Shown piece by piece: positions 8,961 through 14,882 of a stretch of DNA of 39,743 nt. Each line of letters begins with the position of its first letter. Position 1 is the first letter of the stretch. Made by a program: the position numbers and the translations under genes. The notes under the pieces were generated by a model. That model saw only the letters and a program-made list of their open reading frames with translations. It had not been told where the DNA came from and made no database searches. The stretch covers positions 1-39,743 of the forward strand of contig JAOAIH010000007.1 in assembly GCA_026414805.1 (NCBI GenBank), read 5' to 3'. The stretch comes from Spirochaetota bacterium. GTDB lineage: Bacteria; Spirochaetota; UBA4802; UB4802.

Positions 8961-10679
8961 TTATCCTGCATATTCTCCACGGCTGCGTAATTTTTCCTTT
9001 TCTTCTTCTTCAAGCACATTGAATGCTATTTTCCCTACTTTAGTCTTTGGCAACTCATCCCTAAACTCAATTTCCCGTGGGCAACTCCATTTTATCAGAT
9101 GTTCTCTGCAATGTCCAATTAATTCTTCTGCAAGAGCATTGCCAATTTTATCCTTATACTCCGGTTTAACCACTATAAATGCTTTCACCCTTTCAACCTG
9201 GGATTTATCCGGTACTCCAATGACACACGCCTGGTCTACCGCCGGGTGTTTCCGCAATACATCCTCCACTTGCGACGGATACACATTGAATCCAGAAGAT
9301 TTTATCATCCTCTTTAAGCGCAATTTGAAATAGAAAAATCCATCCTCATCCATTGTCCCGATATCACCGGTATGAAGCCACACCATTCCATCATCATGTT
9401 TCTGCAGTGTTTTTGCAGTCTCTTCTGGCTGATTAAGATACCCAAGCATCACAGCAGGCCCCGCAATACATATTTCACCTTCTTCACCACACGGCGCTTC
9501 TTCAGTTGTTCCCTGTTTTACTATTTTTGCCATCATATCTGGGAAGGGTATGCCAATACTGCCTTCACGGTATTCATTCATGGGCATTGCCATAATTGCT
9601 GTAACAGCTTCGGTCAATCCATATCCTTCGCGCAATTTTACATTACCACCCTGCCGCGCTACTACCTTTTCAAACTCCTCTTTTACTACACGCGGCAATG
9701 TATCGGCCCCACTGAATGCAGCCTTGATACATGAAAGGTCTGCTGAGCCAAACACTTTGTTTTTACTTAAAGCTTCAAACAAAGTAGGAACACCAATAAG
9801 AAAATTTGGTTTTTTCTGTTTTATAAGTTTTGCAACAATAACAGGATCAAACTGCGGCACCAGTATGCTTTTGCCACCACCCATAAAGAAAGCATTGACA
9901 CATACTCCAAGCCCAAAACCATGAAATATAGGCAAAATAGCAAGTATACTATCGTCTTCACTCATCTTGCCCCATGCTGCAACCTGCATACCCTCGCTGA
10001 TAAAATTCATATTTGATAACATAATACCTTTTGGCATACCTGTTGTTCCGCCACTGTATAAAATAACTGCCATATCATCAGTTTTCATGTTGGATTTGGG
10101 GACAGAGCTTGTCTTTTTCATCATGTCGGTCCACCATACCACACGCGGGTCTTTGGGCACTTTTGGAATCTTTCTTCCTTTAGTGATGTAAAATCCAAAT
10201 GCTTTAAGAGCCGGCAAAAAATCTGAAATTTTAGTCAAGATAAGCGTTTTGCATGGCGTTTTATCCATTATTTCTTTAAAAGCACCATAAAATGCATCAA
10301 TAGTAAGTGCAAATTTACTATTGCTTATATTCAGGTAAAATTCAATTTCTTTTGGGGGCGATAGCGGGTGAATCATGCTTGCCACTGCCCCAATCTTATT
10401 AACAGCATAAAAGCATATAATCCCCTGTGGTGTTGTTGGCATAGAAATAGTAATTGTATCACCCTCTTTAAGCCCTAATGCATGCAGACCTTGAGCACAC
10501 TGATCAATAAGCTGAGCAAATTCTTTATATGTTGCAGTATACCCCATAAAGTCCCATGCTATAGCGTTGGGTTTTCGTTCTACTGTTTTCATTAAGGCTT
10601 CATACATGGTAACCTTAGGATAATCTAATGTATGAGGCACATCTCCATAAAACTTCAGCCATGGCTTTTTTTCGTACAT
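8961..10679 (-). CDS. Acyl-CoA ligase (AMP-forming, class I adenylate-forming family)
   Basis: It activates a carboxylic acid to its CoA thioester through an acyl-adenylate. The 572-residue protein has the phosphate-binding loop YSGGTTGMPKG (about residues 207-217), the GYGLTEA motif, the hinge region TGDIGTMDEDGFFYF, and the C-terminal Lys motif PKTKVGKI. I start it at the ATG at 10677-10679, which has AGGAGGT 6 nt upstream; a longer frame from 10757 has no such signal. Sequence style is that of medium- or long-chain acid ligases, but the substrate cannot be read from sequence. It lies 108 nt downstream of two dehydratase/reductase-type subunits on the same strand, so it probably supplies their CoA substrate or a related intermediate. 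Confidence 0.88.
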   Translation of the reverse strand: MYEKKPWLKFYGDVPHTLDYPKVTMYEALMKTVERKPNAIAWDFMGYTATYKEFAQLIDQCAQGLHALGLKEGDTITISMPTTPQGIICFYAVNKIGAVASMIHPLSPPKEIEFYLNISNSKFALTIDAFYGAFKEIMDKTPCKTLILTKISDFLPALKAFGFYITKGRKIPKVPKDPRVVWWTDMMKKTSSVPKSNMKTDDMAVILYSGGTTGMPKGIMLSNMNFISEGMQVAAWGKMSEDDSILAILPIFHGFGLGVCVNAFFMGGGKSILVPQFDPVIVAKLIKQKKPNFLIGVPTLFEALSKNKVFGSADLSCIKAAFSGADTLPRVVKEEFEKVVARQGGNVKLREGYGLTEAVTAIMAMPMNEYREGSIGIPFPDMMAKIVKQGTTEEAPCGEEGEICIAGPAVMLGYLNQPEETAKTLQKHDDGMVWLHTGDIGTMDEDGFFYFKLRLKRMIKSSGFNVYPSQVEDVLRKHPAVDQACVIGVPDKSQVERVKAFIVVKPEYKDKIGNALAEELIGHCREHLIKWSCPREIEFRDELPKTKVGKIAFNVLEEEEKEKLRSRGEYAG

Positions 10680-10787
10680 AGACAACCTCCTATGAAAATT
10701 TCTATAATTGTACAGACGCTTAATGCTGCATTTTTGGACAAAGGCATAATTACGCATGGCAAGCTACAGATGCATTGCAACATGGCT

Positions 10788-12020
10788 CTACCTTTTATTA
10801 TCCTTAATGATTTCCATAAAGGCTTCAATGCGGGTCAACACCTGCGCTTCGCTGAAATTGCGCTCATCTACCATATCTGCCTCTATAATGAGTGATGGGA
10901 TACCTCGTTCTTTCTGCACTATACGCTGTATATCATACTGTCCCAGCGAATATGGCTTGCAACTTCGGTTAGAATGCATTACAAGACCATCAACATCATA
11001 TTTATCAATCATGCCAATCACAGCCTTTGCCATCTGGTCTACTGAAATATTTAAGTAAATAGCTGTATATCCTTCAACCATACTCTTTAAAAAGTCATTT
11101 TCATCCAGGTACTCTAACTGTCTGCACCATGCAGTGGTATAGGTATCAGCTACCAGACATGCATCATGCGCAGCAAATGTATCCGAGAGCCATTTAGTCT
11201 TGTACCACACTGGAAGATTGTCCCATAGCAATCGGTATTTTTCATTGGGAATTGCACTTATACCATTGGCAATGCGCTCTTTCATTTCATTTAGCAATTC
11301 AGTATAGTAATCCACCACAATCTGAGTACCACGTAATGTCACAATCAGAGCTAAGTGGAAAAACGCATCAAATGCACTCATGGGAGCAGGCTTATGCATG
11401 GCTGTATCAAGTACCGCCTGCCACAACCGCTGCCCTGCAATAGAAAGCTTACCTACTTCTTTGGCCTTGTCGTAATCAAATTTTTTGCCGCAATGCTCTT
11501 CCAGAAAAGCAATATACTCAAGTATCTGTGCTCCTACATATTCCTTTGCTTCCTGAGTCATTTCACTGTGACAAAAGGGTGTGTCAAAGATAAACAGCGG
11601 CACATTGAAATAGCGCGCCTGTACCTCATACCATTTGAGCACCGTGCCACAGATATTATTGCAACATACTAAAAAATCTGGCTTTGGCAATCCACCAATT
11701 GGCCCGCCATTGATAGGTGCCGCAGCAATATCCGAGCGTGCATATGAACACAGGTCGCGGCAGTAGCCCATTTCTTCGGCTTTTTCGCATAGCTGTACTC
11801 CCATCTTGGATGCACCCACCATTGCACCATGATTTTCAGGATATACCGGAATAACATCCATAACCAAAAGAGGCTCAACAGGGCCACCGCTGGTAATCCA
11901 CGCAACCTTTTTATTGTTCTGCGCAGCCGTTTTTGCCTCTATATAGTAATTGGTCATTATTTCCTTCATCCGTTTTACGGATTTTATTCTATTGTCCTTT
12001 TTTTCCTGTGCATCTGACAT
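10788..12020 (-). CDS. 2-hydroxyacyl-CoA dehydratase / benzoyl-CoA reductase family subunit (BcrB/HgdA-like)
   Basis: A 410-residue member of the family whose two subunits share a [4Fe-4S]-dependent radical chemistry: ATP-driven one-electron reduction of an acyl-CoA thioester. Candidate cluster ligands are in the Cys-rich stretches GYCRDLCSYARSD and VCCNNICGT. The C-terminal HSNRSCKPYSLGQYD motif is typical of the BcrB-like branch. GAGGTGA precedes the ATG by about 4 nt. It lies 19 nt after the BcrC-like subunit and 108 nt before an acyl-CoA ligase. The ATP-hydrolysing activator (HgdC or BcrA/BcrD type) is not in this window. Whether the complex reduces an aryl-CoA or dehydrates a 2-hydroxyacyl-CoA is undecided. 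Confidence 0.85.
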   Translation of the reverse strand: MSDAQEKKDNRIKSVKRMKEIMTNYYIEAKTAAQNNKKVAWITSGGPVEPLLVMDVIPVYPENHGAMVGASKMGVQLCEKAEEMGYCRDLCSYARSDIAAAPINGGPIGGLPKPDFLVCCNNICGTVLKWYEVQARYFNVPLFIFDTPFCHSEMTQEAKEYVGAQILEYIAFLEEHCGKKFDYDKAKEVGKLSIAGQRLWQAVLDTAMHKPAPMSAFDAFFHLALIVTLRGTQIVVDYYTELLNEMKERIANGISAIPNEKYRLLWDNLPVWYKTKWLSDTFAAHDACLVADTYTTAWCRQLEYLDENDFLKSMVEGYTAIYLNISVDQMAKAVIGMIDKYDVDGLVMHSNRSCKPYSLGQYDIQRIVQKERGIPSLIIEADMVDERNFSEAQVLTRIEAFMEIIKDNKR

Positions 12021-12039
12021 AACTTCACCTCGCTAATAG

Positions 12040-13146
12040 TTAAATCATATCAATAAATGCTTCTAATCGCGTCTTCACTTGCCCCTCTGACGGCAACTGT
12101 TGTTCCAGTTCAAGCAGTATTGAAGGAACACCAATTTCATCCAGGGCCTGTTTTAAATATGGATAGTCAAACGAATGCGGGTCACAAAACTTAAGGTACA
12201 GGAATATCGCACCTTGCACATTATGCTTTTTAATCATCGCTTTTATGGTTTCCGCGCGCGTGTAATAATCACGGTGTTTTGCTGGGCAAATATTTCTTTC
12301 ATAGTACCTGTCGGCTATGGCCTGCAATGGCTCCTTATCAGTTGCTATCGCCCCCTCAAAATACCGTGAGCCAGTACACAAATCATCCCACACCACCACA
12401 CCACCTGAAGCTTCAATATAATCATAAATATCAGGATGATTGCAAATACCACCAATAAGCATTATGCGTTTTCGCGTTTCATTTTGTGGCGATAGCTCAA
12501 TGGAAGGGATCAATGCTTTTAAATGATCTACCAGTTCATCACGGTCAATAATCATTGCAGCCTTAATGAGCGCATTCATCTGGCTTCCTGTGAGAGAACT
12601 TTTATTGTCACTTTTCAACTGCCAAATATTCTTTAAAAGTGATCGTATTTCATTGTAAGTAGCAACTGCCTTCTTTAAATTATCATTGGTAATTTTTATT
12701 CCAAAGCCTTGCTCAAGCTCCTTGACAAATCGCACCAGAACATCGTACATATATTTGCGGGCACTTGCAGTGTTAAGCTTAACAGCCCATACCACGTCAA
12801 AGTGGTGCTTCATGCCAGTGTTAAGACGCCACACGTCGGACAGCCGCTGAATGGAATCACACGTATGGGGAAACACAGCGCCATCAACAAATGACAGCTT
12901 GCCTTGAAGCGCATCCTCTAACGCCCCTCGTACTAGCGAACAGCTGTACGCCTGAAGATGAGCATCAGCTTTTGAAATTGTTTCCACTTGCCCAAATATC
13001 CTGAAAGGGTGCATCCCTGCGGCATAAATTATTTCTTCGGGAGTATACGAACACATATATGCCAGCACAGGTTTGCTGGTTTTCTTTTTCAGGTTGGACA
13101 CATATTCATACGGATTGCCCAATTCAAAAAATTTTTTGTTATTCAT
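12040..13146 (-). CDS. 2-hydroxyacyl-CoA dehydratase / benzoyl-CoA reductase family subunit (BcrC/HgdB-like)
   Basis: The 368-residue second subunit of the same complex type. Family signatures are YMCSYTPEEIIYAAG near the N-terminus, VFPHTCDSIQRLSDVW, an internal LIGGICNHPDIYDYIE, and LKFCDPHSFDYPYLK near the C-terminus; the Cys residues in these are likely cluster ligands. I start it at the ATG at 13144-13146 with CAGGAG 6 nt upstream. A longer frame from 13194 would place its first codons inside the IclR operator and is unlikely. As first gene of the unit it is read from the TTGACA/TATATT promoter at 13212-13240. Together with the 10788 subunit and the ligase it forms the core of an inducible acyl-CoA pathway. 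Confidence 0.85.
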   Translation of the reverse strand: MNNKKFFELGNPYEYVSNLKKKTSKPVLAYMCSYTPEEIIYAAGMHPFRIFGQVETISKADAHLQAYSCSLVRGALEDALQGKLSFVDGAVFPHTCDSIQRLSDVWRLNTGMKHHFDVVWAVKLNTASARKYMYDVLVRFVKELEQGFGIKITNDNLKKAVATYNEIRSLLKNIWQLKSDNKSSLTGSQMNALIKAAMIIDRDELVDHLKALIPSIELSPQNETRKRIMLIGGICNHPDIYDYIEASGGVVVWDDLCTGSRYFEGAIATDKEPLQAIADRYYERNICPAKHRDYYTRAETIKAMIKKHNVQGAIFLYLKFCDPHSFDYPYLKQALDEIGVPSILLELEQQLPSEGQVKTRLEAFIDMI

Positions 13147-13170
13147 GAGATGCTCCTGAAAATGTAGTTG

Positions 13171-13205
13171 ACAATGTACGATATTATCGTACATTGTACG
13201 ATAAT
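13171..13205. promoter_or_regulatory. Three-half-site operator, probably for the adjacent IclR regulator
   Basis: ACAATGTACGAT (13171-13182) and ATCGTACATTGT (13186-13197) form a perfect 12-bp inverted repeat around ATT. The right arm overlaps a second perfect repeat, ATTATCGTAC (13183-13192) with GTACGATAAT (13196-13205). This makes three copies of a TGTACGAT-like half-site in alternating orientation. It covers the predicted transcription start of the dehydratase operon, which suits repression. Three-part sites are known for IclR-family regulators such as PcaU. Confidence 0.75.
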
Positions 13206-13211
13206 GTTTTC

Positions 13212-13240
13212 AATATAAATTTGTATATGTCTACTGTCAA
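13212..13240 (-). promoter_or_regulatory. Strong promoter of the acyl-CoA reductase/dehydratase operon
   Basis: On the minus strand a perfect TTGACA (13235-13240) is followed after 17 bp by TATATT (13212-13217). The predicted start is near 13205, at the edge of the operator. The leader to the ATG at 13146 is about 60 nt. Confidence 0.72.
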
Positions 13241-13268
13241 CACATTTTTGTTATATAGTATTACAATT

Positions 13269-14039
13269 ATGAAAATTAAAAAAGGAAAGCTAATCCAATC
13301 CATCACCAAAGCACACGATATTCTTTCTATGTTTGTGAATGATAAAAGGCCACTTGGCATTAGTGATTTTTCCAGACGACTGTCCCTGCCCAAAACAACT
13401 GTGCAGGGAATTGTTAACACACTCTGCCATCTGGGATATTTGGAAAAGGATCACCACAGCGGCAAATACCGCCTTGGCCCGTATGTATTCCAGTTAGGCA
13501 TGAAATATGCCACCAACCTTGACCTGGTTAGCATTGGCAGGGTATGGGCCGAACGGCTGTGTTTTCAGTTTAGGCAACCTGTAAACATTGGAATGCTGGT
13601 TGGGGATAAGGTGGTGGTAGTACTTCGCGTTGAGCCTGAAAACAGGTTTATGTCCTATCCACAGGCTGGTTCGGTCATCCCAACACATACCACTTGTATT
13701 GGCAAACTGCTCTGTGCGTATATGGATAAAAAGCGCCTTGACGAGATACTTGCAAGTTATGAATTTCAACCACTAACTAAAAACTCAATTACAACAGCCC
13801 AAGAATTTTTACAAGAACTTGAAAAAGTAAGATCAATGGGAATAAGTTTTGACAATCAGGAATCAGTGATGGGATTGGCTGGCATTGGCGGGCCAATATT
13901 CAATTATACTGGCCAGATTATCGCTGCATTTGCAATTACCGGAGATGCTGAATTTATCCTACACCATAAACAGGATATCATTCAGGCAGTACGTGACACA
14001 TCATTGCAATTATCGGTTCAATTGGGTTATAATCCATAA
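13269..14039 (+). CDS. IclR-family transcriptional regulator
   Basis: A 256-residue regulator with an N-terminal winged helix-turn-helix (about residues 12-75, including ISDFSRRLSLPKTTVQGIVN) and a C-terminal IclR effector domain (about 90-255, with SYPQAGSVIPTHTTCIGKLL and GLAGIGGPIF). Effector domains of this family bind small organic acids or their CoA esters. I choose the ATG at 13269 because the product then has the usual length and starts just before the helix-turn-helix; no clear Shine-Dalgarno sequence precedes it. A frame open from 13194 would run through the operator. It is divergent from the dehydratase operon and shares the operator, so it most likely controls that operon and itself. 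Confidence 0.88.
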   Translation: MKIKKGKLIQSITKAHDILSMFVNDKRPLGISDFSRRLSLPKTTVQGIVNTLCHLGYLEKDHHSGKYRLGPYVFQLGMKYATNLDLVSIGRVWAERLCFQFRQPVNIGMLVGDKVVVVLRVEPENRFMSYPQAGSVIPTHTTCIGKLLCAYMDKKRLDEILASYEFQPLTKNSITTAQEFLQELEKVRSMGISFDNQESVMGLAGIGGPIFNYTGQIIAAFAITGDAEFILHHKQDIIQAVRDTSLQLSVQLGYNP

Positions 14040-14064: not shown

Positions 14065-14093
14065 TTGACGTTATAATGAATAATTAGTATATT
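14065..14093 (+). promoter_or_regulatory. Sigma-70-type promoter attached to a CIRCE element
   Basis: TTGACG (14065-14070) and TATATT (14088-14093) with an exact 17-bp spacer. Transcription should begin near 14100, inside the CIRCE element. Confidence 0.7.
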
Positions 14094-14097
14094 ATTA

Positions 14098-14124
14098 TTA
14101 GCACTTTATATTAAAGAGTGCTAA
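14098..14124. promoter_or_regulatory. CIRCE element (HrcA operator) without a heat-shock gene
   Basis: TTAGCACTT (14098-14106), a 9-bp spacer, and GAGTGCTAA (14116-14124). The consensus is TTAGCACTC-N9-GAGTGCTAA, so 17 of 18 arm bases match. CIRCE normally precedes groES-groEL or hrcA-grpE-dnaK, but none of these lies here. Confidence 0.85.
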
Positions 14125-14174
14125 TGCAACCTATAACAGAAACTATAGCTCCCATTGGGGGGCTATTTTTTTTT
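14100..14174 (+). ncRNA. Candidate short HrcA-controlled transcript
   Basis: The promoter at 14065 and the terminator at 14145 delimit an RNA of about 75 nt. It consists of the CIRCE stem, a short linker starting ATGCAACC, and the terminator hairpin. It could be a small regulatory RNA, a decoy or leader, or the remains of a lost heat-shock operon. The frame from the ATG at 14124 reads through the terminator into sequence antisense to the next gene and is not a convincing peptide. Confidence 0.4.
14145..14174 (+). terminator. Intrinsic terminator after the CIRCE unit
   Basis: ATAGC-T-CCC (14145-14153) pairs with GGG-G-GCTAT (14158-14166) including one G-T pair, with a four-base loop and a run of nine T. 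It points along the plus strand and would also stop read-through from iclR. Confidence 0.8.
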
Positions 14175-14706
14175 AAAATCCACCACCATACAGAGCTTCC
14201 TGGTAATTTACTAAATCAATTGCAAAGGCTTTTATTCGTGTTGCACGTTCGTCAATTACAGCTGCATAGGATGGGTCAATTTTTACAATAGCATTTTTTA
14301 ATAACTGGCAGTATCGTTGTGTATCGGGGAGCAATGTATCGGTGTAGTAGTAATAAAACTTCCACTTTTTATTACTTTTAGCTATTGTAGCCATATACTC
14401 TAGCATATATGCTGAGCGTAAAAGTCGCTCATAAATGTAGATGATATCTTTAGAATTTGAAGCATACTCCCCGGCAATATATGCATTAAAGGCGTCTGCT
14501 TTTTTACTATCTGCAGGTTGATTACTCCAAAAAGTGATATACACTATCTGTTGTATTTCATCATAACCAGCTGAAGCCTGCACTATATCCGCAGAAGTCT
14601 TTAAAATTGACCGCTGTGTTTCGTTGAAAATATATTCTAAATCAAGTGCATATCCAAACCTAACAAATACTAATAACAACACTATACTCAATACACTTTT
14701 TTTCAT
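14173..14706 (-). CDS. Exported protein of unknown function
   Basis: A 177-residue protein that begins MKKSVLSIVLLLVFVRFGYA, a typical signal peptide with cleavage near GYA-LD. The mature part is mostly helical in appearance and rich in Tyr, Lys and Ala, with no Cys at the signal site, so it should be a soluble periplasmic protein. I start it at the ATG at 14704-14706 behind AAGGAAAG; a longer frame from 14805 adds a second hydrophobic stretch and has no ribosome binding site. Its stop codon touches the T-run of the terminator from the opposite strand. I do not recognise a family. Confidence 0.65.
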   Translation of the reverse strand: MKKSVLSIVLLLVFVRFGYALDLEYIFNETQRSILKTSADIVQASAGYDEIQQIVYITFWSNQPADSKKADAFNAYIAGEYASNSKDIIYIYERLLRSAYMLEYMATIAKSNKKWKFYYYYTDTLLPDTQRYCQLLKNAIVKIDPSYAAVIDERATRIKAFAIDLVNYQEALYGGGF

Positions 14707-14882
14707 CTTCTTTCCTTCATCCTTATATAATGTTTTTTTTATTAGTAACAATACTATTATTATTGTAACAATCAACTGCTGTTTTTTGCATGAAAGTAAT
14801 AGCAACTCATTATATTTTTTTTAAATTGTGTCAATCATTAATGAGTATATGGAATGCTAATTGAACTTCTTCTCTTCTATTC

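Follow-up and report, generated by a model that had tools for sequence, protein, structure and literature searches.

The uncultured spirochaete-related bacteria described here appear to place under HrcA control a tiny RNA predicted to bind the clpB message, instead of clpB directly. HrcA is a known repressor of chaperone operons, of which its operator, the CIRCE element, is typical. In the window, that is, the whole stretch of 39,743 nucleotides that was analysed (contig JAOAIH010000007.1), one CIRCE is part of a short unit whose features, and those of its neighbours, are the following.

14065 to 14093, forward strand: promoter TTGACG-17-TATATT, recognised by sequence, with TTGAC, the -10 and their spacing kept across five species
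14098 to 14124, forward strand: CIRCE (HrcA operator), TTAGCACTTtatattaaaGAGTGCTAA, over the predicted transcription start, recognised by motif match and fold
14100 to 14174, forward strand: putative small RNA gene of about 75 nt, the start inferred from the -10 and the end from the terminator
14116 to 14142, forward strand: predicted clpB-pairing region, GAGTGCTAATGC (3' CIRCE arm) followed by the linker AACCTATAACAGAAA, recognised by complementarity to the clpB leader
14145 to 14174, forward strand: intrinsic terminator, a 9-bp stem and T9 tail, recognised by sequence, position kept in five species
13194 to 14039, forward strand: upstream neighbour, an IclR-type regulator, synteny marker outside the unit, by flank homology
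14173 to 14805, reverse strand: downstream convergent neighbour, a hypothetical protein without Pfam match, synteny marker outside the unit, by flank homology

The unit, its conservation and its covarying complementarity to the clpB leader can be read from the genome sequences compared. On this basis it is likely that HrcA represses a trans-acting small RNA, and that stress releases this RNA to pair with the leader of clpB, most likely raising ClpB synthesis.

The earlier note on this DNA had described a TTGACG-17-TATATT promoter, a CIRCE in which 17 of the 18 arm bases agree with the consensus, and a strong terminator, and all of them are found in place, forming a free-standing unit. The -35 TTGACG (14065-14070) and the -10 TATATT (14088-14093) are separated by 17 bp, and the CIRCE, with 17 of the 18 arm bases of TTAGCACTC-N9-GAGTGCTAA, is located 5-31 nt 3' of the -10. 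It is the sole CIRCE in the window when up to three mismatches are allowed, the expectation from 100 shuffles being 0.00. The promoter hexamers taken alone occur at about the chance level of this AT-rich region, with 6 promoter-like sites against 5.5 expected; the promoter is accepted nonetheless because -35, -10, CIRCE and terminator are all kept in five species, which chance does not give. The terminator stem (14145-14166) has nine pairs and is followed by T9. With transcription taken to start near 14100, where the -10 would place it, and to end near 14174, the length of about 75 nt proposed for the transcript is obtained. The RNA from 14090 to 14174 is predicted to fold with -28.8 kcal/mol (z = -5.2), and the CIRCE, as RNA, makes a hairpin of 9-12 bp at its 5' end. 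A search of the whole window with the Rfam 15 covariance models at gathering score returned a tRNA only, and the small RNA matches no family. On the other side of the IclR regulator and divergent from it, the reverse strand of the window (8961-13194) carries what is likely a pathway cluster of the acyl-CoA dehydratase or reductase kind, with two D-component proteins of 2-hydroxyglutaryl-CoA dehydratase and an AMP-binding enzyme of the acyl-CoA ligase type.

Conservation was analyzed in five genomes of the genus, four of them closely related: G000, which is the genome of the window (3.24 Mb in 186 contigs, 95.6% complete), and G001 to G004. All five carry the unit in the same syntenic place and with the same parts, promoter, CIRCE, linker and terminator. 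TTGAC, the -10 TATATT and the spacing between them are unchanged in all five species and the CIRCE is near-perfect in each, while the bases around the unit drift to about 69% identity. When 46 genomes of the order were searched with a covariance model, strong matches appeared in the five of the genus (E 1e-19 to 1e-25) and none of comparable strength in the other 41; the weaker matches inspected were ordinary CIRCEs of hrcA, hsp20 and groES. GTDB genomes were also scanned for GAGTGCTAAT-N(2,10)-CTATAMCA, and the only true relatives among the matches listed were UBA2205 and CALEUQ01. Almost all the matches listed belonged to Lachnospiraceae and were discarded as unrelated, being promoters with CTATAACA as -10; many of these (L072-L151, among the matches listed) have a CIRCE inside the spacer between a TTGAC -35 and the CTATAACA -10.

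These comparisons bear on what the unit may be if it is not an RNA gene. The typical association of CIRCE with chaperone operons had suggested that the site could be a functionless scar left by an operon that moved away, and a comparison of this spacer among relatives had been proposed. The same orphan unit, terminator included, is present in the five species, and groES or any other chaperone gene adjoins it in none of them. Since the unit is kept with all its parts in the genus and has no strong match elsewhere in the order, it is to be regarded as a genus-level small-RNA gene, and the scar, to which we give hardly any credence, is rejected within the genus. It is also very improbable that the site serves as an HrcA decoy or titration site, or gives a tiny protein-coding transcript. 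The CIRCE is indeed intact, and four species have an ATG 3' of it; however, a decoy has no need of promoter, terminator and conserved linker, and coding was discarded because G001 lacks the ATG and the other species do not share a reading frame behind it. The unit has thus its own promoter and terminator and no conserved frame across the species compared, as an independent non-coding transcription unit would have.

The small RNA would be one member of an HrcA regulon, the CIRCE being located at promoter and start in a genome that has an hrcA gene and other CIRCE operons. The strict CIRCE sites of G000 are three: that of hrcA, whose contig also carries dnaK 2 kb further downstream, that of the hsp20 operon, and 14098-14124. 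In the four relatives whose assemblies include it, G001-G004, the groESL operon has its own CIRCE, in which the spacer is shorter. The suggestion that all CIRCE sites be listed, and groESL and dnaK checked for their own, therefore comes out in favour of a small RNA, as do the syntenic conservation of the unit in the five genomes and its covarying partner, the clpB leader. Both groES and groEL are absent from the 95.6% complete G000 assembly and present in the four relatives, most likely because of an assembly gap. A weak CIRCE match on contig C59 sits within a ribosomal protein operon and was discarded as chance. The clpB leaders of the five genus genomes contain no CIRCE, and neither do those of families f4-f7 of the same order. 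In contrast, the sister families f2 and f3, also of this order, have a full CIRCE directly at clpB (3/3 and 2/3 of those checked, respectively; L049, L054, L067, L239, L240).

In all five genus genomes the clpB leader carries a complement of about 27 bp to the 3' CIRCE arm and the unstructured linker of the small RNA. With the small RNA as BLAST query the leader was found, antisense each time, in four genomes at E values of 7e-5 to 1e-3, and in the fifth, G001, the complement is present too, as was seen after its clpB was located. In G000, GAGTGCTAATGC and AACCTATAACAGAAA are predicted to pair with the leader (G000:C63:11127-11156) with -40.0 kcal/mol, a 3-nt bulge in the target being the only interruption; across the genus the core duplexes range from -35.6 to -43.6 kcal/mol. 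The promoter of the leader is again TTGACG-17-TATATT, without CIRCE. The pairing site is located some 15-80 nt into the clpB transcript, not over the Shine-Dalgarno but about 30 to 75 nt 5' of it. Targets in G000 were sought by pattern and BLAST searches, in which the exact 13-nt linker complement, TTTCTGTTATAGG, turned up nowhere but in the clpB leader and in the gene of the RNA itself, and none of ten one-mismatch sites preceded a likely gene start. The CIRCE arm, which makes up half of the complementarity, is constrained anyway as operator, so that the linker carries most of the evidential weight; only 0-14 of 5000 shuffled linkers paired with the leader as well. The small RNA offered as one option by the earlier note is hence supported, and the link to clpB had escaped its reader.

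Covariation between RNA and leader is, at the sequence level, the main evidence for RNA-RNA pairing. Both partners have changed at five columns: G001 accounts for four of these and G004 for one, an A to C in the RNA that is accompanied by the matching change in the leader. The G004 RNA is predicted to bind its own leader with -43.6 kcal/mol and the others with -36.9 or weaker, and the G001 RNA its own with -41.2 kcal/mol and the others with -36.0 or weaker, while the G001 leader reaches only -25 to -29 kcal/mol with the RNAs of other species. In these two divergent species, then, the own leader is bound best and the own RNA is also the best binder of each leader. The linker is three bases shorter than its target, having lost them at one of two places according to the species, and stays complementary each time. 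The complementarity to an mRNA encoded elsewhere is consequently conserved with compensatory changes at five columns. The shared sequence could instead be the DNA operator of some regulator acting at both promoters, the RNA-RNA complementarity being incidental, given that both copies lie 3' of a TTGACG-17-TATATT promoter and that a CIRCE half-site makes up part of the match. We consider this very improbable: in each of the five genomes the orientation is antisense, the operator of a conserved regulator would have no need of the five columns at which both copies changed in step, species by species, a third copy of the exact 13-mer is absent in G000, and the leader copy is some 15-80 nt inside the clpB transcript.

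Pairing in trans, which is the preferred reading, would operate as follows. In the unstressed cell, HrcA bound to the CIRCE at the start of transcription would keep the small RNA off, and loss of HrcA upon heat or folding stress would allow the RNA of about 75 nt to be made. In this RNA an open linker would join a CIRCE-derived 5' hairpin to a terminator hairpin with a U tail. Through the linker the RNA would pair with the long 5' leader of the clpB mRNA, transcribed from its own CIRCE-less promoter, and the pairing could then zip on into the 3' arm of the CIRCE, to a total of about 24-28 bp. The most likely outcome would be a raised ClpB output, which would bring ClpB into the HrcA response alongside dnaK, groESL and hsp20. 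Transcription, binding and control by HrcA, and activation rather than repression, are what we infer from the arrangement of the sequences. In favour of activation are the role of ClpB as a heat-shock chaperone, the direct CIRCE at clpB in families f2 and f3, and the position of the pairing site, upstream of the Shine-Dalgarno rather than over it. An HrcA-controlled RNA that pairs with the clpB mRNA to repress or destabilise it, for instance in a late shut-down of ClpB, would draw on the same duplexes and covariation, and RNase III is generally known to cut long perfect duplexes. It is nevertheless unlikely, since the site is not over the Shine-Dalgarno and repression of a heat-shock chaperone by an RNA that heat induces would go against the direct CIRCE at clpB in the sister families.

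As to how activation might be achieved, one route would be the freeing of the Shine-Dalgarno from a CUCUCC adjoining the pairing site. In G000, G002 and G003 the adjoining CUCUCCAU (CUCCCCAU in G000) is predicted to pair with the Shine-Dalgarno AUGGAGG, and blocking the pairing site leaves the latter freer. In G004 blocking the site was no better than blocking other windows, and in G001 the release is absent, blocking the site changing nothing. The effect being exceptional in neither of these two genomes, release of the Shine-Dalgarno is only partly supported and not general, and stabilisation of the clpB mRNA would be the alternative route.

The link between HrcA and clpB looks like one that has been rewired, the sister families having CIRCE directly at clpB. 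We give an even chance to the whole of this proposal, namely that HrcA controls a dedicated small RNA, that the operator hairpin was reused as the strand invading the clpB leader, and that control by a CIRCE in cis was replaced by RNA in trans in the genus. The ClpB tree does not single out any one family as the nearest to this genus, which leaves the cis-to-trans replacement no more than plausible. Conserved elements of other kinds are found in the clpB leaders of two further families, a nearly invariant one of about 30 nt, GTGCTTGCAGTATACCATCCGGCATC, in genus g13 of family f6 (L053, L058, L059, L060, L068), and CCTGTTGCTTTTTAATCCTTGCATTATT, just 3' of the promoter, in genus g22 of family f7 (L051, L056, L057, L063, L064). 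BLAST gave no trans partner RNA for either of them.

To our knowledge no HrcA-controlled small RNA acting on a chaperone mRNA is known, and none was found in the open-access literature, subscription papers being mostly outside the coverage. The unit shares with the HrcA/CIRCE regulon (groESL, hrcA-grpE-dnaK) the operator sequence, its place over the start site and a genome with hrcA and CIRCE operons, and differs in that what is controlled would be a non-coding RNA and not a chaperone mRNA. The trans-encoded base-pairing RNAs of the DsrA-rpoS type act on mRNA leaders, and the small RNA resembles them in that its gene is short and stands free, its seed is open, its terminator has a U tail and its sequence is complementary to a 5' leader, as well as in the presence of Hfq, encoded in the five genus genomes. 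It differs in that a heat-shock repressor would drive the RNA, the operator hairpin would join the pairing, the predicted target is clpB and the pairing is unusually long. With the direct CIRCE of families f2 and f3 it would share the coupling of clpB to HrcA, there in cis at the promoter and here in trans via RNA. A CIRCE with a role in RNA has a precedent in Rhodobacter capsulatus groESL, where, according to a citation in PMC3207917, it stabilises the 5' end of the mRNA, although there in cis on its own message. A link between a small RNA and HrcA exists in mycobacteria, but in the opposite direction, the RNA F6 acting on HrcA (PMC11188477).

The five natural pairs of small RNA and leader, with their compensatory changes, provide ready test material. 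If the proposal is true, an operator would have been turned into an RNA-pairing element, and a single regulatory link, from HrcA to ClpB, would have been retained while its wiring shifted from a DNA operator to a small RNA.
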